From contig NZ_FNTZ01000001.1 in assembly GCF_900105555.1 (NCBI RefSeq), forward strand, positions 3,723,501-3,787,500: a DNA stretch of 64,000 nucleotides, written 5' to 3'. Of the stretch, positions 3,875 through 53,770 are shown piece after piece. The notes beneath the pieces were generated by a model. The model did not search any database. It worked only from the letters and a program-made list of their open reading frames with translations, and was not told the DNA's origin. The DNA is from Pseudomonas coleopterorum (GTDB taxonomy: Bacteria > Pseudomonadota > Gammaproteobacteria > Pseudomonadales > Pseudomonadaceae). Position numbers and translations under genes: made by a program. Position 1 is the stretch's first letter. Every line of letters begins with the position of its first letter.

Positions 3875-3944
3875 CGCGGGATTGTTTCTGCTCGATCGGG
3901 AATGTTAGCGTGCTCACATTCACCTCCCGACGAGCACAACCCCA

Positions 3945-4919
3945 ATGAAAAAAACCGTCCTCGCGTTCAGCCGCATTTCCCCCGCCATGGTCGAGCGGCT
4001 CGAAGCCCATTTCGACGTCATCGTGCCCAATCCCAAGGCCGGTGACATCGCCGCGCAATTCAACGAAGCCCTGCCCAAGGCCCATGGCCTGATCGGCGCC
4101 GGTCGGCCGCTGGGCCGCAAGCAACTGGCCGATGCCGCCCTGCTGGAAGTGGTCTCCAGCGTTTCGGTGGGTTACGACAACTACGACGTCGGCTACTTCA
4201 ACGAACGCGGCATCATGCTCACCAATACGCCCGACGTGCTGACCCAGAGCACGGCCGACCTGGCCTTCGCGCTGATCATGAGCAGCGCGCGACGCGTGGC
4301 CGAACTGGATGCCTGGACCAAGGCCGGCAACTGGAAAGCCAGTGTCGGTGCCGACCAGTTCGGTACCGATGTGTACGGCAAGACCCTGGGCATCGTCGGC
4401 CTGGGCAATATCGGCGCCGCCGTGGCGCGCCGCGGCCACCTTGGCTTCGACATGCCTATCCTGTACAGCGGCAACAGTCGCAAGCCTGAACTCGAACAGG
4501 AGCTGGGCGCGCAGTTTCGCAGCCTCGAGCAGCTGCTGGCCGAAGCCGATTTCGTCTGCCTGGTGGTGCCGCTCAGCGACAAGACCCGGCACATGATCGG
4601 CACGGCCGAGCTGGCGCAGATGAAGAAGAGTGCCATTCTGGTGAACATCTCTCGCGGACCGGTGGTCGATGAAGCGGCGCTGGTGCAGGCCCTGCGCGAC
4701 GGCACCCTGCGCGGCGCCGGCCTGGATGTCTACGAGAAGGAACCCCTGGCCGAATCGCCCTTGTTCGAGCTGGGCAACGTCGTGACGCTGCCGCACATCG
4801 GCTCGGCCACGGCGCAGACCCGCGACGCCATGGCCGACCGAGCCATTGACAACCTGACCGCCGCCTTGCTCGGCAAGCGGCCTCAAGACCTGGTCAATCC
4901 GCAGACCTTCAAGGGTTAG
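3945..4919 (+). CDS. ghrB: D-isomer specific 2-hydroxyacid dehydrogenase (glyoxylate/hydroxypyruvate/2-ketogluconate reductase type)
   Basis: NAD(P)H-dependent reductase of 2-oxoacids such as glyoxylate, hydroxypyruvate or 2-ketogluconate, 324 aa, cytoplasmic. The Rossmann motif GLGNIG lies at residues 152-157. The catalytic triad is visible: Arg237 in NISRGP, Glu266 in YEKEP and His284 in LPHIGSA. Length and motifs match the GhrB/TkrA branch. It follows the LysR gene by 70 bp on the same strand. Its stop overlaps the tail of the convergent EamA gene by 11 bp, leaving no room for a terminator between them. The exact substrate is uncertain. Confidence 0.88.
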   Translation: MKKTVLAFSRISPAMVERLEAHFDVIVPNPKAGDIAAQFNEALPKAHGLIGAGRPLGRKQLADAALLEVVSSVSVGYDNYDVGYFNERGIMLTNTPDVLTQSTADLAFALIMSSARRVAELDAWTKAGNWKASVGADQFGTDVYGKTLGIVGLGNIGAAVARRGHLGFDMPILYSGNSRKPELEQELGAQFRSLEQLLAEADFVCLVVPLSDKTRHMIGTAELAQMKKSAILVNISRGPVVDEAALVQALRDGTLRGAGLDVYEKEPLAESPLFELGNVVTLPHIGSATAQTRDAMADRAIDNLTAALLGKRPQDLVNPQTFKG

Positions 4920-16007: not shown

Positions 16008-16478
16008 ATGATCAATGCAAAGCTGCTGCAACGGGTGATCGATGCGTCGAACGACGGCATCGTCGTCGCCGAACAGGAAGGCGAGGACAATATCCTCATC
16101 TACGTCAATCCGGCGTTCGAACGCATGACCGGCTACAGCTCGATGGAAATGCTCTATCAGGACTGCCGCTTGCTGCAGGGTGACGACCGTGACCAGCCGG
16201 CTCGTCGGCGGGTGCGCGAAGCGATCGATCAGGGCGTGGCGTGCCGCGAGGTGCTGCGCAACCATCGCAAGGACGGCAGCTGTTTCTGGAATGAGCTGTC
16301 GATCACGCCGGTCCATAACGAAAGCGACCAACTGATGTACTACATCGGGATCCAGAAGGATGTCAGCCGCGAGGTCGCGGCGCAGCAGCGTATCGTCGAA
16401 CTGGAACAGCAGGTCGCAGCGCTGCAACGACGCGTCGCCGAACTCGAAACCTCTGCCCCTTCGAGTCCAGCGCGATGA
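16008..16478 (+). CDS. Short LOV-domain blue-light receptor
   Basis: A 156-aa single-domain LOV photoreceptor close to the P. putida SB1/SB2-LOV proteins. FMN bound in the PAS fold forms a reversible adduct with a conserved cysteine under blue light. That cysteine is present as Cys53 in QDCRLLQGDD (the usual motif is NCRFLQG; here Asn is Asp and Phe is Leu). Other flavin contacts are in place: Arg54, Gln57, the asparagines in NHRKDG and FWNELSITPV, and Gln in YIGIQKDV. The C-terminal 35 residues form a coiled coil (IVELEQQVAALQRRVAELE) for dimerisation. It has no output domain, so signalling must go through a partner. The MerR gene 0.7 kb away is the best candidate. Confidence 0.93.
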   Translation: MINAKLLQRVIDASNDGIVVAEQEGEDNILIYVNPAFERMTGYSSMEMLYQDCRLLQGDDRDQPARRRVREAIDQGVACREVLRNHRKDGSCFWNELSITPVHNESDQLMYYIGIQKDVSREVAAQQRIVELEQQVAALQRRVAELETSAPSSPAR

Positions 16479-16532
16479 CGATGAACATTCTTCGAGGCTG
16501 CATCGAATCCTCATTCACCGCGAGCGTGCGCC

Positions 16533-17138
16533 ATGCCGCCTGATGTATTGCTGACCCAGGACGAGCTGGATTTCCTGCGGGCCATGCAGGCCAATCCGCA
16601 GCTCAACGTGCGCGATACCCTTCTCAATGTTTCGGTGAAGGGTGGGCCGCAGGTGCGCGAGCTGCTGATGCGCCTGGCCTCCCATGAACAGGTCACCATC
16701 GAGGCGCACCTGGAGAATCAGCAGATCAGTTTTCCGCTGCAGATCGTGGAGGACGATTTCCAGGCGGCCCATCTGGAACTGGGGGCGCCGAGTATCTATG
16801 AAGACGGGCCGATGCTGCGTCCATGGCGGTTGAGTCTGACCGAACCCATCGTGCTGCGCGATGGCGAAGGACGTGACAGCGACTTCTGGGTTCGCGACAT
16901 TTCCTTCAAGGGCGCCCTGCTCGAGGCCCGCCATGGGGCCAAGGCGCCGGCCAGGTTCCAGCTGTGGTTCACGCCTGAAGGCTACGCGCCGATTCCGTTG
17001 CGCGGCTCGATGATTCGCGAGGCCGAGCACGGTCTGTTCGCCTACCGCCTCAGCCAGAGCGACGCCCGGGCGATCGAGTCACTGCGTCAGTTCATCCTGC
17101 AGCAGCACCGTCTGGTGCATCCGCAACTTCACAGCTGA
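16533..17138 (+). CDS. PilZ-like protein of unknown function
   Basis: A 201-aa cytoplasmic protein downstream of the LOV gene on the same strand (54-bp gap). The second half has a beta-rich pattern with D122-I-S124-F-K-G127 (RDISFKG), which fits the D/NxSxxG half of the PilZ cyclic-di-GMP signature. The RxxxR half is not clearly present, so ligand binding is uncertain. The N-terminal half (about 1-80) is reminiscent of the YcgR N-domain. The gene is tail-to-tail with the MerR gene (11-bp gap). A role linking light to c-di-GMP would be speculation. Confidence 0.55.
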   Translation: MPPDVLLTQDELDFLRAMQANPQLNVRDTLLNVSVKGGPQVRELLMRLASHEQVTIEAHLENQQISFPLQIVEDDFQAAHLELGAPSIYEDGPMLRPWRLSLTEPIVLRDGEGRDSDFWVRDISFKGALLEARHGAKAPARFQLWFTPEGYAPIPLRGSMIREAEHGLFAYRLSQSDARAIESLRQFILQQHRLVHPQLHS

Positions 17139-17149
17139 CGCCGATCCAG

Positions 17150-18097
17150 TCAGCTGTCCAGATGGCCCGCCAGGTACTGCTGCAGACGCCGCTGCATCAG
17201 GCGCCCATCGCTGCCCAGACACACGATTTCCGGAGACTGAAGGCTTTCCTGGACCGTCTCGGACAGCTCACCGGCCAATAGCAGCGGGCAACTCAAGGCG
17301 TTGTTCAATCGCTTCAACTGCCGGATCAGCGCCGGCACCGGCGGACGGTTGGAGAACAGCACGAGCGCCTGTGGAGCGAGCTTTTCGCAGACCAGGCTCA
17401 GCTCTTCGAGCGGCTGGCCCAAGCCCAGCAACTGCACGTCCACTTGCGGTCCGCCCAACAGCAGGCCGGCCACCTGAAGCTCGAGTTCGCGGCACTGATC
17501 GGGTATGGCCACCAGCACTACGCGGCTGTCCTGTCCTTGATCGGCAGTCAGGCGCAGGCGTTGCAGCGTGCGCGCACGCAGGAATGTATCGAGGAAGATC
17601 CATTCGCTGGCCTGGCCGAAGTGGCCCTGGTGCACGAGCAGTTCCTGCCATACCGGCATCAGCACCTGCTCGAAGGCCACGGCCAGCGGGTAACTGGAAA
17701 ACACCTGACCATAGACCTGATCGAGCCTGGGTTCGGCGAATTCGCGCACGCATTGGCGGACCCGTTCCTGCCACTGCTGCCATTCACCCGGCTCGTCGCG
17801 GGCGCTGGGCGGTGGTGCTTCGGTCTGCTGGGTACGGGCGAGAATCTTGCCGACCTTGCTCACCGCCACCCCGCGCTCGATCCAGCCCAGGATGCTGCGC
17901 ACCTCCTCGATATCGGCCAACGAGTACAAGCGGTGCCCGCTTTCGGTGCGTGTTGGCTGCACCAAGCCGTAGCGACGCTCCCAGGCACGCAACGTGACGG
18001 GATTGATTCCGGTCAGTCGCGCAACCTCGCGAATGGGGTACAGCTCGTCCAGCGCTGCATCTTGCACGCCAGACAATCGGGTGCCGGATTCGCTCAT
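17150..18097 (-). CDS. MerR-family regulator of the LitR/CarH type (class II, cobalamin motifs lost)
   Basis: A 315-aa regulator. The MerR DNA-binding domain is at about residues 20-88 (YPIREVARLTGINPVTLRAW, ERRYGL). The remainder aligns in outline with the helical and Rossmann-like cobalamin-binding domains of LitR/CarH. The B12-coordinating histidines are absent: the helical motif reads SEWIF instead of an EH pair, and the DxHxxG equivalent reads PDQCRELE. This is the class II LitR pattern, in which a separate LOV protein supplies the light signal. The ATG has a poor ribosome binding site. It is divergent from the ABM-domain gene and close to the LOV gene, and is a paralogue of the gene at 51417. 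Confidence 0.88.
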   Translation of the reverse strand: MSESGTRLSGVQDAALDELYPIREVARLTGINPVTLRAWERRYGLVQPTRTESGHRLYSLADIEEVRSILGWIERGVAVSKVGKILARTQQTEAPPPSARDEPGEWQQWQERVRQCVREFAEPRLDQVYGQVFSSYPLAVAFEQVLMPVWQELLVHQGHFGQASEWIFLDTFLRARTLQRLRLTADQGQDSRVVLVAIPDQCRELELQVAGLLLGGPQVDVQLLGLGQPLEELSLVCEKLAPQALVLFSNRPPVPALIRQLKRLNNALSCPLLLAGELSETVQESLQSPEIVCLGSDGRLMQRRLQQYLAGHLDS

Positions 18098-18303
18098 TGC
18101 TAGTCAACCGCTGCCAGGAACATGAATCGACAGTGTAACCGCTGTGGGTACATAGAGGTTTGCGGATGATCCAACGGACGGTAGATGTGCAACCGACCGT
18201 TTTCGGGAATAATACTTGCTTGATTTCAAATGCAGCCCACTACCCCGGCGCTGCATTCGATGGAGGCTCCTACCCGGAGCACCAGACTGTCTGGAGATAC
18301 ACA

Positions 18304-18870
18304 ATGTCTACCTCACCCGTTACCTTGATGGTCGCGCGCCGCGTGGCCGATGGCAAATATCAGGACCTGATCGCCTGGCTGCATGAAGGCGAACAGCTTG
18401 CCACCGACTTTCCGGGTTACCTGGGTTCTGGCGTTCTGGCCCCTGCGCCAGGCGACGACGAATTCCAGATCATCTTCCGCTTCGCCGATGAAACCACCTT
18501 GCATGCCTGGGAGCATTCGGCTTCCCGTCGTTCGTGGCTGGGCCGTGGCAGCGACCTGTTCGCCCAACCCCATGTGCACCGCGTCAGCGGCACCGAAGGC
18601 TGGTTCGGCGACAGTGGCCTGCAGCGTCCACCGCGCTGGAAGCAGGCCGTGGCCATCTGGCTGGCGTTCTTTCCGGTGTCGCTGATCTTCAACTTCCTGT
18701 TCGGCCACGTGTTGAACGAGATCAGTCTGGTGCCCAGAATCATGCTCAGCACCCTGGCCCTGACTCCGATCATGGTGTTTTTCTTCATTCCCTTGTCGAC
18801 GCGCCTACTGCGCAACTGGTTGCACGCCACCCCGGCCCGCGCTCCGCTGCCCAAGGCCAAGGTGGCCTGA
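18304..18870 (+). CDS. Antibiotic-biosynthesis-monooxygenase (ABM) domain membrane protein
   Basis: A 188-aa protein. The N-terminal ABM-type ferredoxin-like domain spans about residues 5-100 (TLMVARRVADGKYQDLIAWL, FQIIFRFADE). It is followed by two C-terminal membrane helices (AVAIWLAFFPVSLIFNFLFG; ISLVPRIMLSTLALTPIMVFFF) and a short basic tail. ABM domains of this kind include small-molecule oxygenases and uncharacterised stress proteins. No catalytic residues can be assigned. It is divergent from the class II LitR gene and first of a run ending in folM, folX, DUF1244 and HopJ, so light control is a reasonable inference. Confidence 0.75.
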   Translation: MSTSPVTLMVARRVADGKYQDLIAWLHEGEQLATDFPGYLGSGVLAPAPGDDEFQIIFRFADETTLHAWEHSASRRSWLGRGSDLFAQPHVHRVSGTEGWFGDSGLQRPPRWKQAVAIWLAFFPVSLIFNFLFGHVLNEISLVPRIMLSTLALTPIMVFFFIPLSTRLLRNWLHATPARAPLPKAKVA

Positions 18871-18937
18871 TCGGTCGGCCCTGCTGCGCTTTGTGGTATA
18901 AATCAGCGCAGCAACCTGCCGACGAAGAGCCCGCCCC

Positions 18938-19639
18938 ATGCCCCACCCGATCCTCATCACCGGTGCGAGCCAGCGCATCGGCCTGCACTGTGCCGAACGC
19001 CTGTTGGGCGAAGGCCAACCGGTCATCATCAGCTACCGTCAGGAGCGCGAAACCGTCGCTCACCTGCGCGAGATGGGCGCGGTCACCATCCATGCCGACT
19101 TCGGCAGCGAGGCCGGCATTCTGGCGTTCATCGATGCGCTCAAGGCGCAGACCTCGCAGCTGCGCGCCATCGTCCACAACGCGTCGGCCTGGATCGCGGA
19201 CAGTGCGGGAGACGAAGCAGCTGCGTTCCAGCAGATGGTCAACGTGCACATGCTGGCGCCCTACCTGATCAACCTGCACTGCGCCGACCTGCTGCGCGCC
19301 TCCAGCCCGGCCGACATCGTCCACATCAGCGACGACGTGACGCGCAAGGGCAGCGCCAAGCACATGGCCTATTGCGCCAGCAAGGCGGGCCTGGACAACC
19401 TGACCCTGTCGTTCGCCGCGCGCTTCGCCCCGGCGATCAAGGTCAATGGCATTGCCCCGGCGCTGATCCTGTTCAACCCGGACGACGACGCCGACTATCG
19501 CTACAAGTCGCTGGCCAAATCGGCGCTGGGCATCGAGCCCGGTGCCGAGGTCATCTACCAGAGCCTGCGCTACCTGCTGGAAAACCCCTACGTCACGGGC
19601 ACCACCTTGACCGTCAACGGCGGCAGGCACGTAAAATAG
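18938..19639 (+). CDS. folM: Dihydromonapterin reductase FolM
   Basis: Short-chain dehydrogenase, 233 aa, of the FolM type, reducing dihydromonapterin (and dihydrofolate weakly) to the tetrahydro form with NADPH. The N-terminal cofactor motif is TGASQRIG, the catalytic Tyr-Lys is in YCASKAGL, and the proline-rich region after the active site is [10 protein letters not shown]. Tetrahydromonapterin serves as cofactor of phenylalanine hydroxylase in Pseudomonas. It is followed by folX (60-bp gap), the preceding enzyme of the same branch, so the pair forms a pterin module. Confidence 0.88.
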
Positions 19640-19698
19640 CGCCTGCCTGCCAGCCCGGACACGGCGCTGACCCCGAACATTCTGCGGAGCACACAACG

Positions 19699-20070
19699 AT
19701 GGCACCACTGCAGCCAGGAATGGCACGTATCCGGGTCAAGGACCTGCGCTTGCGCACCTTCATCGGTATCAACGAAGACGAAATCGTCAACAAACAGGAC
19801 GTGCTGATCAACCTCACCGTCCTGTACCCGGCACTCGAAGCGGTGCGTGATAACGATATCGAGCACGCCTTGAACTACCGCACCATCACCAAGGCGGTGA
19901 TCCAGCACGTGGAGGGCAATCGCTTCGCCCTGCTCGAACGCCTGACCCAGGAAATTCTCGACCTGGTCATGCAGAACACCGCCGTGCGCTACGCCGAAGT
20001 GGAAGTCGACAAGCCCCATGCGCTGCGCTTCGCCGAATCGGTTTCGATTACCCTCGCTGGCAGCCGTTGA
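19699..20070 (+). CDS. folX: Dihydroneopterin triphosphate 2'-epimerase FolX
   Basis: A 123-aa enzyme that epimerises dihydroneopterin triphosphate to the monapterin form. It belongs to the tunnelling fold shared with FolB. Family signatures are [30 protein letters not shown]-like [14 protein letters not shown] and [17 protein letters not shown], all closer to FolX than to FolB. The ATG at 19699 gives the expected N-terminus. It works with FolM just upstream to supply tetrahydromonapterin. GTP cyclohydrolase, the entry enzyme, is not in the window. Confidence 0.9.
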
Positions 20071-20097
20071 CCGGTTGCCGCCCAGCTGGAGAGCGAC

Positions 20098-20394
20098 ATG
20101 AACGAACAGCAACGTCTGGAACTGGAAGCCGCAGCCTTCCGCCGTCTGGTCAAGCACCTGGACGAGCGCAAGGATGTGCAGAACATCGACTTGATGAACC
20201 TGGCCGGATTCTGCCGCAACTGCCTGTCCAAATGGTACAAGGCGGCAGCCGACGAGCAGCAGGTCGAGGTCAGCCTCGACGAGGCCCGCGAAGTGGTCTA
20301 CGGCATGCCGTACGCGCAGTGGAAGGCTCAGTACCAGCAGGAAGCCAGCGCCGAACAGCAGGCGGCCTTCGCCAAGGGGACGCCCAATGCATGA
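20098..20394 (+). CDS. DUF1244 protein
   Basis: A 98-aa cytoplasmic protein of the DUF1244 family, small and helical with two conserved cysteines in GFCRNCLSKWY, which suggests metal or redox chemistry. No function is established. It starts 28 bp after folX, and its end overlaps the HopJ-like gene by 8 bp, so it belongs to the same transcription unit. Confidence 0.85.
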   Translation: MNEQQRLELEAAAFRRLVKHLDERKDVQNIDLMNLAGFCRNCLSKWYKAAADEQQVEVSLDEAREVVYGMPYAQWKAQYQQEASAEQQAAFAKGTPNA

Positions 20395-20728
20395 TATGAA
20401 GGCGCTGCGCACCAGCCTGGCCAGCGGCGAACATCAGTTCGCAACGACGCTGGCGTTCGTCGCCGAGCACTATGCCTATACACCGCAGGCCTTCCGCAAC
20501 GGTGCTCTGGACAATGCGGCCGGTCAGAATGAAGGCTCGTGCAAGACGTTGGGCCTGGCCCTGCTGGAAGGGCTGAGCGATGAAGAGGCATTGCTGGCGT
20601 TCGGCGAACACTATCGCTCGGTGGTGGCAACACCCGACGGCAGCGATCACGGCAACATCCGCAATCTGATGGAGCATGGCCTGGCAGGGGTGACGTTCTC
20701 CGAACTGCCGTTGGCCCGCCTGGGCTGA
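20387..20728 (+). CDS. HopJ type III effector family protein
   Basis: A 113-aa protein of the HopJ family (FVAEHYAYTPQAFRNGALDN, GSCKTLGLALLEGL, GDHYRSV-like GEHYRSVVATPDGSDHGNIR). The family name comes from a plant-pathogen effector, but homologues occur in many non-pathogenic and marine bacteria. Nothing here (no hrp box, no secretion genes) suggests secretion. The ATG at 20387 has an AAGGGGA ribosome binding site 6 bases upstream, so it is preferred to the ATG at 20396. It overlaps DUF1244 and is followed by a strong terminator. Confidence 0.85.
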   Translation: MHDMKALRTSLASGEHQFATTLAFVAEHYAYTPQAFRNGALDNAAGQNEGSCKTLGLALLEGLSDEEALLAFGEHYRSVVATPDGSDHGNIRNLMEHGLAGVTFSELPLARLG

Positions 20729-49003: not shown

Positions 49004-49027
49004 TATACTTATTAAGACTTTTGTACA
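49004..49027. promoter_or_regulatory. Candidate LitR-type operator upstream of the FAD oxidoreductase
   Basis: TGTACA at 49022-49027, in the phrase TTTTGTACAGGTTTG, lies 18 bp downstream of the related hexamer TATACT (49004-49009). The same 18-bp phasing and the same TGTACAGGTTT phrase occur at 50421-50449 before the YbgA-like gene. It lies 60 bp before the start codon at 49087. Proposed binding site for the MerR regulators; not proven. Confidence 0.5.
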
Positions 49028-49059: not shown

Positions 49060-50339
<1,280 letters not shown>

Positions 50340-50368: not shown

Positions 50369-50449
50369 CCTGTACAAAGAATTTAGCCTGTACAAACCCG
50401 GATTTATGATGAAACTATGCTGTACAGCGTTGTCAGTATGTACAGGTTT
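50369..50449. promoter_or_regulatory. Four TGTACA motifs in two 18-bp-spaced pairs upstream of the YbgA-MerR-phrB genes
   Basis: TGTACA occurs at 50371, 50389, 50421 and 50439. Each pair has an exact 18-bp offset, and the pairs are 50 bp apart. The first pair repeats CCTGTACAAA, and the second ends in TGTACAGGTTTC, like the site at 49022. The region is AT-rich and contains a TATGAT (50405-50410) that could be a -10 box. The arrangement suggests an operator/promoter for the MerR-type regulator encoded in the same operon. Confidence 0.65.
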
Positions 50450-50464
50450 CAGAAGAGGTCCGTC

Positions 50465-51427
50465 ATGCAAGAGCCCAGCGTTAGCAAACCCAAGATTGGT
50501 ATCAGTGCCTGCCTGCTCGGTGCGCCTGTGCGCTATAACGCCGGGCACAAGGAATCGCGCTGGTGCAGCCGGATTCTGGTCGAGCACTTCGAGTTCGTCC
50601 CGGTCTGCCCCGAGGTTGCCATCGGTCTGGGGACGCCCCGCGAGCCAATTCGCCTGGTCGGTGACAAGGATCACACCCAGGCGGTCGGTACTGTGCACCG
50701 CGACATCAATGTCACCGCCCCATTGGCTGCCTACGGCGAACAGATGGCCGGTGAGCTGACCGATCTGTGCGGCTACATCTTCATGCAGAAGTCGCCCTCC
50801 TGCGGCCTCGAACGGGTGAAAATCTACCGCGACAACGGTGCCCCCCAGCGCGAAGGCGGCCGAGGGATCTATGCCCAGGCCTTCTGCTCGCGCCATCCGG
50901 ACCTGCCGGTGGAAGAAGAAGGTCGCCTGTGCGACCCGGTACTGCGGGAAAATTTCCTGGTGCGTGTAGGCGCCTATGCCCAATGGCAAGCGCTGCTGGC
51001 TGAAGGCTTGACGCGCCGTGGCTTGACGGAATTCCACTCGCGCTTCAAATACCAGCTGATGGCCAACAACCCCCTGCAATACAAGGTGCTGGGCAAACTG
51101 CTGGGCAGCATGGGCCGCGGTGACGCCGAGCAGATCGGCCCGCGCTATTTCAGCGAGCTGATGCAGGCGCTTAAACGCTGTGCCACGCGTGGCACCCACA
51201 GCAATGTGTTGCAGCACATCAGCGGCTACCTCAAGCGCGATATCGATGCGCAGGACAAGCAGGAACTGCAACAGCTGATCAACCAGTACCGCGAGGGCAT
51301 CGTTCCGCTGGTGGTGCCGATGACCCTGCTCAAGCACCTGTTCCGTATCCATCCGGACCCTTACATTGCCCAGCAGACCTACCTGCAGCCGCACCCCGAA
51401 AACCTGAGCCTGCGCAATGCCATCTGA
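50465..51427 (+). CDS. YbgA-like DUF523/DUF1722 protein
   Basis: A 320-aa fusion: an N-terminal DUF523 domain (about 8-155) with conserved cysteines (ISACLLGAPVRYNAGHK; QKSPSCGLERVKIY) and a C-terminal DUF1722 domain (about 190-310, FHSRFKYQLMANNPLQYKVL). E. coli YbgA (DUF1722) is likewise encoded immediately upstream of phrB, so the association with photolyase is widespread. The function is unknown; the cysteines suggest a metal site. The ATG at 50465 has an AGAGG site. Its end overlaps the MerR gene by 11 bp. Confidence 0.88.
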   Translation: MQEPSVSKPKIGISACLLGAPVRYNAGHKESRWCSRILVEHFEFVPVCPEVAIGLGTPREPIRLVGDKDHTQAVGTVHRDINVTAPLAAYGEQMAGELTDLCGYIFMQKSPSCGLERVKIYRDNGAPQREGGRGIYAQAFCSRHPDLPVEEEGRLCDPVLRENFLVRVGAYAQWQALLAEGLTRRGLTEFHSRFKYQLMANNPLQYKVLGKLLGSMGRGDAEQIGPRYFSELMQALKRCATRGTHSNVLQHISGYLKRDIDAQDKQELQQLINQYREGIVPLVVPMTLLKHLFRIHPDPYIAQQTYLQPHPENLSLRNAI

Positions 51428-52328
51428 CGCCAACGGCACCGACTGGCTGCCGATCCGCGAGGTCACTCGGCAGACCGGCGTGCACCCGGTCACCCTGCGC
51501 GCCTGGGAACGGCGCTACGGGCTGATCGTGCCGCACCGCACGGCCAAGGGCCATCGCCTGTACGACTCAGCGCAGATCGCACGTATCCACCATGTGCTGA
51601 CCTGGCTCAACCGGGGCGTGGCCGTCAGCCAGGTCAAACAGTTGCTCGATGCGCCACGCGACGCAAGGCCCCAGGTACAGAACGACTGGCAGCAACTGCG
51701 CCAGACACTGGCCCAGGCCATCAGCGACATGGCCGAGCGGCCGCTGGATGATCTATTCAACCAGACCATGGCGCTGTATCCACCGGCAACCCTGTGCGAG
51801 CAGCTATTGCTGCCGTTGCTCAGCGATCTCGAGCAACGCTGGGCCGGCCAGTTCGGTGGGCAGATGGAGAAGGTGTTTTTCCACGGCTGGCTGCGCAGCA
51901 AGTTGGGCACGCGGATCTATCACAACAACCGCCAACTCGGCGGTGCGCCTGTGGTGCTGGTCAACCAGGCCGATGTCACGCCGGACCCGTACCTGTGGCT
52001 GGGCGCTTGGCTCGTCAGCAGCAGCGATTGCCCGGTGCAGGTGTTCGACGCGCCGCTGCCGGCAGGTGAACTGGCCTTGGCGTGCGACAAACTCCAAGCC
52101 CGCGCCCTGATGGTCTATGCCGACAAGGCGCTCAACCTGGCCACGCTGGGTCGGCTGCTGGTCGGCTGTGCCTGCCCCAAATGGCTGGTGGGCTCGGCCG
52201 TGCTCATCCACCGCGCCGCTACCGGAGACAGCCCTCCCTCGATGGCCGACCTGAACCTGGCGACCGATCCGTTGCACGCCCAGCAATCGCTGCAAGCGTC
52301 TGGCGTATTGGCCGACCGGCAACCCTGA
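51417..52328 (+). CDS. MerR-family regulator of the LitR/CarH type (class II), photolyase operon
   Basis: A 303-aa paralogue of the regulator at 17150. The DNA-binding domain is almost identical in the recognition region (LPIREVTRQTGVHPVTLRAW, ERRYGL). The C-terminal part keeps the length of the cobalamin-binding region but lacks its signature: the helical motif reads MEKVFF rather than an EH pair, and the DxHxxG segment is replaced by VTPDPYLWLG. It overlaps the YbgA-like gene and lies 20 bp before phrB. It is the likely autoregulator of the operon through the TGTACA pairs. Confidence 0.88.
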   Translation: MPSDANGTDWLPIREVTRQTGVHPVTLRAWERRYGLIVPHRTAKGHRLYDSAQIARIHHVLTWLNRGVAVSQVKQLLDAPRDARPQVQNDWQQLRQTLAQAISDMAERPLDDLFNQTMALYPPATLCEQLLLPLLSDLEQRWAGQFGGQMEKVFFHGWLRSKLGTRIYHNNRQLGGAPVVLVNQADVTPDPYLWLGAWLVSSSDCPVQVFDAPLPAGELALACDKLQARALMVYADKALNLATLGRLLVGCACPKWLVGSAVLIHRAATGDSPPSMADLNLATDPLHAQQSLQASGVLADRQP

Positions 52329-52348: not shown

Positions 52349-53770
52349 ATGCAATTGATCTGGCTGCGCAGCGACCTGCGAGTGCACGACAACCCCGCCC
52401 TGGCGGCCGCCTGCGAGCAGGGCCCGACCGTGGCCGTGTTCCTGTTGAGCCCCAAGCAATGGCTGGAACACGATGACTCGCCGAACAAGGTCGATTTCTG
52501 GCTGCGCAATCTCAAGGAGTTGAGTGCCAGCCTCAAGGCCTTGCACATTCCACTGCTGCTGCGTGAGGCAGATACCTGGGACAAGGCGCCCAAGGTGATT
52601 GCCGCGCTGTGCACCGAGCACAAGATCGAAGCCGTGCACTGCAACGACGAATTCGGCGTCAATGAAAACCGCCGCGACGAAGCAGTGGAAGCCGCCTTGG
52701 CCAAGGCAGACATCCCCCTGCACCGCTACCTCGATCAAGCATTGTTCACGCCGGGCAGCGTGCTGACCAAAGGCGGCACCTACTTCCAGGTCTTCAGCCA
52801 GTTCCGCAAGGTCTGCTACGAACGCCTGCATCAGTCCGTCCCGGCGCTGGCAAAAAAGCCTCGCGCGCAGAAGCCGGTGCACATCGCCGCGGACAAGGTT
52901 CCCGACCAGATCAAAGGGTTCGCCACGCCCGACGAAGCACTGCGCAAGCGGTGGCCTGCCGGTGAAAAGGAAGCGCACAAGCGCCTGGACACCTTCACCG
53001 ACCAACCGATCGAAGACTACAAGGTCGAGCGTGATCTACCGGCCCACCCCGGAACCAGCCAGATCTCGGCCTACCTGACCTCGGGCGTGGTTTCCCCGCG
53101 CCAGTGTCTGCATGCGGCGCTCAACAGCAACCGTGGCGAGTTCGAGAGCGGCAACGTCGGCGCCGTGACCTGGATCGGCGAGCTGATCTGGCGCGAGTTC
53201 TACCGGCACATCATGGTCGGCTATCCGCGGGTGTCGATGCACCGGCCGTTCCGCGAAGAGTACGCCGCCCTGCCCTGGCGCAATGCGCCCAGTGAGTTGC
53301 AGGCGTGGAAGGAAGGCCGCACAGGCATTCCCATCGTCGATGCGGCCATGCGCCAGCTGGTGACCACCGGCTGGATGCATAATCGCTTGCGCATGATCAC
53401 GGCGATGTTCCTCAGCAAGAACCTGCTGATCGACTGGCGTGAAGGCGAGCGTTTCTTCATGCAGCACCTGATCGATGGCGACCTGTGCTCCAACAACGGC
53501 GGCTGGCAATGGAGCGCGTCCACCGGGACCGATTCGGTGCCGTATTTCCGGATCTTCAATCCGGTAAGCCAGTCGCAACGGTTCGATGAGCAAGGCGTGT
53601 TTCTCAAGCAGTGGCTGCCCGAGCTGGAAGGACTGGATCGCAAGCAGGTCCACGCACCGACCGCCGACGCACTCAAGCAGAGCGGCTATCCCCGCCCGAT
53701 CGTGGACCTGAAGCAAGGACGTGAACGTGCCTTGGCGGCGTTCAAGAATCTGCCACGCAAAGCCAAATAG
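52349..53770 (+). CDS. phrB: Deoxyribodipyrimidine photolyase PhrB
   Basis: Class I CPD photolyase, 473 aa, repairing UV-induced pyrimidine dimers with blue light. The N-terminal alpha/beta antenna domain (about 1-130, LIWLRSDLRVHDNPAL) is followed by the helical FAD domain with TSQISAYLTSGVVSPR, WIGELIWREFYRH, TGIPIVDAAMRQL and the Trp-rich electron path NNGGWQWSASTGTD. The ATG at 52349 has a GAGG site. It is last of the inferred light operon. The antenna is probably methenyltetrahydrofolate by family; the sequence does not prove it. Confidence 0.95.
   Translation: MQLIWLRSDLRVHDNPALAAACEQGPTVAVFLLSPKQWLEHDDSPNKVDFWLRNLKELSASLKALHIPLLLREADTWDKAPKVIAALCTEHKIEAVHCNDEFGVNENRRDEAVEAALAKADIPLHRYLDQALFTPGSVLTKGGTYFQVFSQFRKVCYERLHQSVPALAKKPRAQKPVHIAADKVPDQIKGFATPDEALRKRWPAGEKEAHKRLDTFTDQPIEDYKVERDLPAHPGTSQISAYLTSGVVSPRQCLHAALNSNRGEFESGNVGAVTWIGELIWREFYRHIMVGYPRVSMHRPFREEYAALPWRNAPSELQAWKEGRTGIPIVDAAMRQLVTTGWMHNRLRMITAMFLSKNLLIDWREGERFFMQHLIDGDLCSNNGGWQWSASTGTDSVPYFRIFNPVSQSQRFDEQGVFLKQWLPELEGLDRKQVHAPTADALKQSGYPRPIVDLKQGRERALAAFKNLPRKAK

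Follow-up and report, generated by a model that had tools for sequence, protein, structure and literature searches.

Results

Genes and proteins of the locus

The window analysed here is a 64,000-nucleotide stretch of the Pseudomonas coleopterorum genome (contig NZ_FNTZ01000001.1, assembly GCF_900105555.1), and the subject of this work is a gene pair within it: a short LOV protein and a MerR regulator of the class II LitR type, LitR2, with a PilZ gene between them. The analysis shows which genes and residues are present, where operator-like sites lie (Table 1), and that LOV and LitR2 occur jointly in relatives. The LOV, PilZ and LitR2 genes are all intact. LOV and LitR2 are antiparallel, and the LOV stop lies 671 bp from the 3′ end of LitR2, in agreement with the 0.7 kb given by a first-pass annotation of the window, which had read the two genes as sensor and regulator. 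A gene with a likeness to the antibiotic biosynthesis monooxygenase (ABM) family faces LitR2, and is followed by folM and folX, both of which pass their NCBIfam cut-offs.

Table 1. Features of the LOV-LitR2 locus and of the phrB region, in window positions.
Feature	Position	Strand	Basis and remarks
Short LOV blue-light photoreceptor, SB-LOV type	16008..16478	+	156 aa; intact open reading frame, Pfam, solved chains, C53 and arginines 54, 61, 66, 70
YcgR-like PilZ protein between LOV and LitR2	16533..17138	+	PF07238, 27.7 bits (cut-off 22.5); AlphaFold model
LitR2, class II LitR-type MerR regulator (PmlR2 type), proposed LOV target	17150..18097	-	315 aa; Pfam, CarH alignment
ABM-like protein, hydrophobic C-terminal part, facing LitR2	18304..18870	+	Best start ATG at 18304; no published-type operator recognised upstream
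folM, dihydromonapterin reductase	18938..19639	+	NCBIfam PRK06483 over cut-off
LitR operator-like site, 1 mismatch, before FAD oxidoreductase gene	49004..49027	+	Pattern scan; same place in many relatives' loci
FAD-dependent amine-oxidase-like oxidoreductase, predicted light-regulated	49087..50118	+	Family matches, upstream site
LitR operator-like site, perfect TGTACA-N12-TGTACA	50371..50394	+	Pattern scan
LitR operator-like site, perfect TGTACA-N12-TGTACA	50421..50444	+	Pattern scan; identical in near relative G043
RudS-type gene, desulfidase domain and DUF1722, predicted target	50462..51427	+	PF04463, PF08349; start provisional
LitR1, second class II LitR-type regulator, at phrB cluster like PmlR1	51417..52328	+	Family match, cluster position
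phrB, DNA photolyase, predicted target	52349..53770	+	PRK10674 over cut-off

The LOV protein matches only PAS families in Pfam (PAS_9, E 4.3e-20), with no output domain, and lies closest to solved ‘Sensory box protein’ chains of similar length, namely 7r5n (E 7e-67) and 3sw1 (E 1.9e-57), the second of which we take to be PpSB1-LOV. In the alignments of LOV, LitR and PilZ proteins used throughout, rows with stops or of less than 75% length were dropped and the window's own row was counted. Cys53, within QDCRLLQG, is Cys in 96/96 aligned LOV proteins, and the flavin-contacting N85, N95 and Q116 are likewise present, both asparagines in 96/96 and the glutamine in 95/96. Reading frame, PAS match and alignment thus bear out the earlier description of a 156-residue LOV protein with Cys53 and no output domain. 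Residue 55 (16170-16172), a position in the Cys motif that holds Phe in 93 of the 96 aligned proteins, is Leu here. The best named relative, from Pseudomonas sp. 286, is 88% identical (among the best 80 of 219 named LOV loci, some of which end at contig ends and some of which overlap with our numbered genomes).

The roles of C53, N85, N95 and Q116 in LOV domains are given in PMC5314338 (here and below, published work is cited from those portions of each text that were available). All four arginines of the PpSB1-LOV cluster (54, 61, 66 and 70) are found in the window's protein, R66 being shared by just 17 of the 96 aligned proteins. PpSB1 has a lifetime of 40 h, and changing R61 and R66 makes its recovery 280-fold faster (PMC5314338); PmSB-LOV recovers within 56 min (PMC9758184). 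Because R61 and R66 are present here and their change speeds PpSB1 recovery, a slow, PpSB1-like photocycle is a fair guess for this protein.

The regulator matches PF13411 (E 1e-15), and its best solved relatives are CarH structures (3whp and 5c8d). Its alignment to Thermus CarH spans the DNA-binding part and, with a weak score of 19 bits, residues 142-249. At the positions that we take to be the cobalamin-binding histidines of CarH, H142 and H177, LitR2 carries W166 and R203, as expected from the earlier claim of a regulator lacking its cobalamin-coordinating histidines. The first position is Trp in 95/95 aligned LitR proteins; the second is Arg in 78/95 and His in 15/95, and so is not always altered in the class. 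Class II LitR proteins keep only the four-helix B12-binding_2 domain. In Pfam this domain gave no match in LitR2 up to E 1, and matches LitR1 at 4.2e-5; the corresponding region of LitR2 is covered by the CarH alignment. With a MerR helix-turn-helix, a weakly CarH-like C-terminal part and no cobalamin-coordinating histidines, the predicted protein agrees in these features with the published class II LitR type; the B12-binding residues of class I CarH are absent from it. In one relative (G034:C1:1989974-1990899, locus L089) the LitR2 match is split over two overlapping frames, which may reflect a frameshift or an error in sequencing.

LOV and LitR2 occur together in relatives

Relatives were drawn from 119 genomes of the genus searched with the window's PilZ protein, which has a match in 115 of them, and neighbouring genes were then looked for at the PilZ loci. 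We counted 113 such loci, leaving aside the window and G047 (whose loci L055 and L102 hold LOV, PilZ, LitR, ABM and folM between them); all were picked via PilZ, so that PilZ loss is invisible in this table. LOV and LitR are both present at 94 of the loci and both absent from 16, LOV stands alone at 3, and LitR alone at none. Whole genomes give the same picture: among the 119, both are found in 105, LOV only in 1 (G091), LitR2 only in 0 and neither in 13. LitR2 was scored at E ≤1e-54 with the 17150-18097 query, the other matches listed being at 1.9e-50 or weaker, a cut-off that takes in the split gene of G034 and the partners of LOV genes at other places. A short LOV was scored as absent when there was no match to the 16008-16478 protein at E 1e-30 or better, and also in G027, where the match sits in a 1261-aa frame. 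An in-frame stop is reported in six LOV matches (G068, G089, G064, and extra copies in G038, G057 and G049).

On a quick tree of 114 rows, built from five linked proteins with many gaps, each trait needs 9 changes, at least 8 of them on starred branches. Across 8 independent pairs, LitR changed in the same way as LOV in a mean of 5.9, in the opposite way in 0, and stayed unchanged in 2.1 (median p 0.03). Two of the three loci with LOV only belong to genomes (G069 and G118) that carry LitR2 elsewhere. The pairing also extends to short LOV genes at another place, found in 12 genomes and the sole LOV of G024, G025, G065 and G102: in 10/10 of those looked at, a divergent LitR adjoins. Named LOV loci agree, with a LitR within the 4-kb flanks in 74 of the best 80, antiparallel in 74/74; these 74 comprise 42 with PilZ between the genes, 14 convergent pairs lacking PilZ, and 18 divergent pairs. 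Joint occurrence and joint loss in relatives, despite the PilZ gene between them, are strong evidence that LOV and LitR2 are a working pair, for the most part retained or lost as a unit across the genus.

Operator-like sites mark the phrB region

Class II LitR proteins have been described as binding T(G/A)TACA-N12-TGTA(C/T)A and repressing. We scanned for the published pattern TGTACA-N12-TGTACA, a consensus drawn from few published sites, and found three window matches with at most one mismatch (49004, 50371 and 50421) against 0.03 expected. All lie more than 30 kb from the LOV-LitR2 locus: the site at 49004 precedes an oxidoreductase gene dependent on flavin adenine dinucleotide (FAD), and those at 50371 and 50421 precede RudS, LitR1 and phrB. 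This second LitR-type gene, with RudS, photolyase and operators, was missing from the first-pass annotation. The whole genome holds 4 perfect sites and 15 with at most one mismatch, against 7 for the reversed pattern, and in 7 relatives the perfect pattern occurs at 22 sites (none in G080) against 0 for the reversed one. The order RudS-LitR1-PhrB is kept in 25/25 LitR1 loci of relatives, with a site of at most one mismatch before RudS in all except L206 (24/25). RudS takes 4-thiouridine out of tRNA, and light-linked operons have been noted for it (PMC11417400). From these sites, the expected light output of the switch is the phrB region, 49.0-53.8 kb, and we infer that LitR2 would use the sites at 49-50.4 kb.

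Further sites were seen beyond the window. The perfect, AT-rich palindrome at G000:C1:1816373-1816396 (L168:9374-9397) lies between frames that read as ribokinase-like and chemoreceptor-like, and was weighed as a possible further target; G043 has 3 perfect sites, none of which equals this one. Another perfect site, at 4629481, falls within a coding frame and was taken as chance. Divergent LOV-LitR pairs at other places in ten genomes (L213-L222) have operator-like sites by the LOV 3′ end in 9/10, and in L214 the sites (3904-3978) precede frames that read as a small SnoaL-like gene, a short-chain dehydrogenase and an FAD oxidoreductase. A scan for promoter and terminator consensus sequences gave nothing clearly above shuffles.

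The neighbouring genes

A different output, the facing ABM-folM-folX operon, would be suggested by P. mendocina, in which folM is light-induced 2.4-2.5 fold and PmlR2 bound the folM promoter (PMC9758184). An operator-like site with at most one mismatch stands before folM in P. mendocina FFL34 and, within 220 bp upstream, at 17 of 109 loci from relatives (FolM is matched only weakly at 27 of these 109); it is kept in G056 and G094, both among 12 genomes that lack a short LOV. In the window, however, an operator was sought at both genes and not found: the 220 bp upstream of folM contain nothing closer than 5 mismatches, so that the P. mendocina type is not recognisable, and the best match between LitR2 and ABM has 3, within the range of 3-5 at 14 loci that lack LitR. 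ABM itself is present at 13 of the 19 loci lacking LitR. We therefore consider light control of this operon rather unlikely. With no operator at ABM or folM and clear sites at the phrB region, 18304-20728, the interval in which the earlier annotation had placed the light response, is not the expected output, and light tests in P. coleopterorum are better aimed at 49.0-53.8 kb than at 18.3-20.7 kb.

The same annotation had described an ABM-domain membrane gene facing the regulator. The position and the hydrophobic C-terminal part stand, but the ABM match of 21.6 bits falls slightly below the Pfam cut-off of 23.1. At the far end of the interval lies a HopJ-family gene (PF08888, 20387-20728), which most relatives' loci carry at this position too; it is thus probably an ordinary gene, despite the type III effector name of its family.

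The PilZ gene invites another idea, a three-part LOV-PilZ-LitR module in which PilZ would tie light to cyclic-di-GMP. Its AlphaFold model (pLDDT 83) best matches YcgR, MotI and MrkH, with low whole-length TM-scores (best PDB match YcgR 5y6f, E 3.2e-5, TM-score 0.41 over the whole length), on which basis the predicted protein is YcgR-like; by sequence, the family profile found no solved relative up to E 1. YcgR-type PilZ receptors carry the motifs RxxxR and (D/N)xSxxG. The domain and the fold are there, but only the second motif is, as D122-I-S-F-K-G (residue 122 is Glu in 93/115 aligned PilZ proteins); the first is altered to R96-P-W-R99, with R96, W98 and R99 invariant in all 115. PilZ does lie next to LOV on the same strand, 43-160 bp away by match ends, in 96/97 loci. 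Yet it is kept at 16 of the 113 PilZ-picked loci where LOV and LitR are both missing, and at E 1e-8 it goes unmatched in 33 of the best 80 named LOV loci, LitR being present in 32 of the 33; in G006, G070 and G079, LOV and LitR adjoin with no PilZ at all. Such a module is thus quite improbable. Since PilZ and ABM are often retained where LOV and LitR are lost, they are neighbours of the switch, and gene content across relatives leads us to reject both as needed parts.

PilZ and ABM had been said to be undescribed in such systems. This holds insofar as PilZ, c-di-GMP and ‘antibiotic biosynthesis monooxygenase’ are absent from the main text of PMC9758184, but pmlR2, PME15565 and pmSB-LOV are presented there as a cluster conserved in Pseudomonas, in which PME15565 lies between the other two genes. 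A literature search with limited subscription coverage found no paper on a short LOV with PilZ, and the available text of PMC11231323, on P. cichorii LOV1, mentions neither PilZ nor LitR.

That the 17150-18097 protein senses light itself via cobalamin like CarH, with LOV a chance neighbour, is barely credible: it has the MerR fold, a weak C-terminal CarH match and relatives with His at the H177 position, and PMC11417400 has class II LitR as adenosyl-B12-dependent, but the invariant Trp at the H142 position, the Arg at the H177 position, the joint loss with LOV in several lineages and the B12 independence stated for P. putida (PMC9758184) all speak against it, and CarH-like B12 sensing is rejected on W166, R203 and the missing Pfam B12 match.

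LitR1 persists in genomes that lack a short LOV

Among the 119 genomes, 12 have no short-LOV match at E 1e-30. LitR1 is retained in all of these except G093, with 281-296 open codons between the match start and the stop, and the 11 loci concerned (L190-L194, L196-L201) all retain RudS, LitR1 and PhrB in that order, a site lying upstream of RudS in 11/11 (with 1 mismatch in G117). A Cys-bearing LOV domain lies inside a longer frame in 8 of the 12, and searches at E 1e-13 or better gave none in G020, G026, G104 and G110; BLUF was found in none of the 12. LitR1 in these genomes may answer another photoreceptor or light-caused stress, or it may be decaying. It is tempting, if speculative, to propose two kinds of class II LitR, with LitR2 needing and travelling with the short LOV, and LitR1, in control of RudS and photolyase, reading light or a consequence of it by neither cobalamin nor LOV. 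The content of G091 (a short LOV with LitR1) fits an action of LOV on LitR1 too. The signal of LitR1 in Pseudomonas genomes that lack a short LOV is a testable question raised by this work. Titles and abstract beginnings in the literature, under limited subscription coverage, pointed to PMC9758184 as the single paper on the mechanism and gave nothing on joint loss or on LitR1 in the absence of LOV.

Discussion

A proposed blue-light switch in which lit LOV lifts repression

We propose that in the dark LitR2, probably together with LitR1, would sit on TGTACA-N12-TGTACA operators and keep the FAD oxidoreductase gene and the RudS-LitR1-phrB cluster repressed. Blue light would form an adduct between Cys53 and flavin mononucleotide in the LOV protein, and lit LOV would then bind the DNA-binding half of LitR2 and take it off DNA. 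Photolyase, tRNA desulfidase and LitR1 would be made upon this release. Back in the dark the adduct would decay, slowly if R54, R61, R66 and R70 act as in PpSB1-LOV, and repression would resume.

Light-dependent binding, loss of DNA binding and anti-repression were obtained in vitro with the homologous pair of P. mendocina NBRC 14162, PmSB-LOV and PmlR2, purified by Maruyama et al. 2022 (PMC9758184), and the same may be expected by analogy for the proteins of P. coleopterorum. In gel filtration PmSB-LOV binds the N-terminal half of PmlR2 solely when lit, and lit PmSB-LOV blocks PmlR2 binding to TGTACA-N12-TGTACA and restores transcription in vitro; C53A abolishes the spectral change as well as PmlR2 binding and the block on DNA binding (PMC9758184). 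This biochemistry and the joint occurrence in relatives together uphold the original reading of the pair as sensor and regulator.

Several points weigh against a switch of this kind. Within the P. mendocina work, light made no difference to the two-hybrid signal, a partial supershift was obtained with unlit LOV, and gel shifts show the lit complex still on DNA, at odds with Biacore (PMC9758184). PmlR2 has a published B12-binding_2 match (PMC9758184) that its window counterpart lacks up to E 1, and the description of class II LitR as adenosyl-B12-dependent (PMC11417400) is contrary to PMC9758184. On the genomic side, the operator consensus rests on few published sites, LOV and LitR2 are at separate places in G069 and G118, and G091 has a short LOV and LitR1 but lacks LitR2. 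The extra LOV copies of G038 and G049, in which in-frame stops are reported, seemingly have no LitR of their own, because there are two LitR matches per genome among the matches listed. Taking all of this together, we give a LOV-LitR2 blue-light switch with repression lifted by lit LOV a probability of roughly 0.88.

Comparison with known systems

The pair and its mechanism are already in print for the P. mendocina homologues, and so the switch is not new; the window is a well-supported new instance of a known light switch. What is added here is the evidence of joint loss, a corrected output region and the LitR1 question, and the joint loss lends evolutionary support to the in vitro mechanism, though another gene separates sensor from repressor.

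Among known systems, PmSB-LOV/PmlR2 shares with the window a Cys53 short LOV, a class II LitR, an unannotated gene between them, folM alongside, a second LitR at the phrB cluster and TGTACA-N12-TGTACA operators. P. mendocina FFL34 has the same order LOV-PilZ-LitR-ABM-folM, with 68% identity in LOV and 59% in LitR. Unlike in PmSB-LOV/PmlR2, the folM operator is unrecognisable in the window, and R61 and R66 suggest a slow photocycle of the PpSB1 kind. In P. putida KT2440, PpSB1-LOV and PpSB2-LOV act with PplR1-3, the short LOVs acting on the class II LitR proteins of phrB and other light-inducible genes (Sumi et al. 2020, via PMC9758184 and PMC11417400); KT2440 has three LitR and two short LOV proteins, whereas the window's genome has two class II LitR-type genes and one short LOV. 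CarH and class I LitR, which are adenosyl-B12 photosensors, resemble LitR2 in the MerR DNA-binding domain and, weakly, in the C-terminal half, but the cobalamin histidine positions are changed here and a separate photoreceptor is proposed. Finally, the BluR/BluF system of E. coli (PMC9758184) likewise places a MerR-type regulator under a separate blue-light receptor; that receptor is a BLUF protein, a domain not found in the window's genome, and the corresponding part would be played here by LOV.

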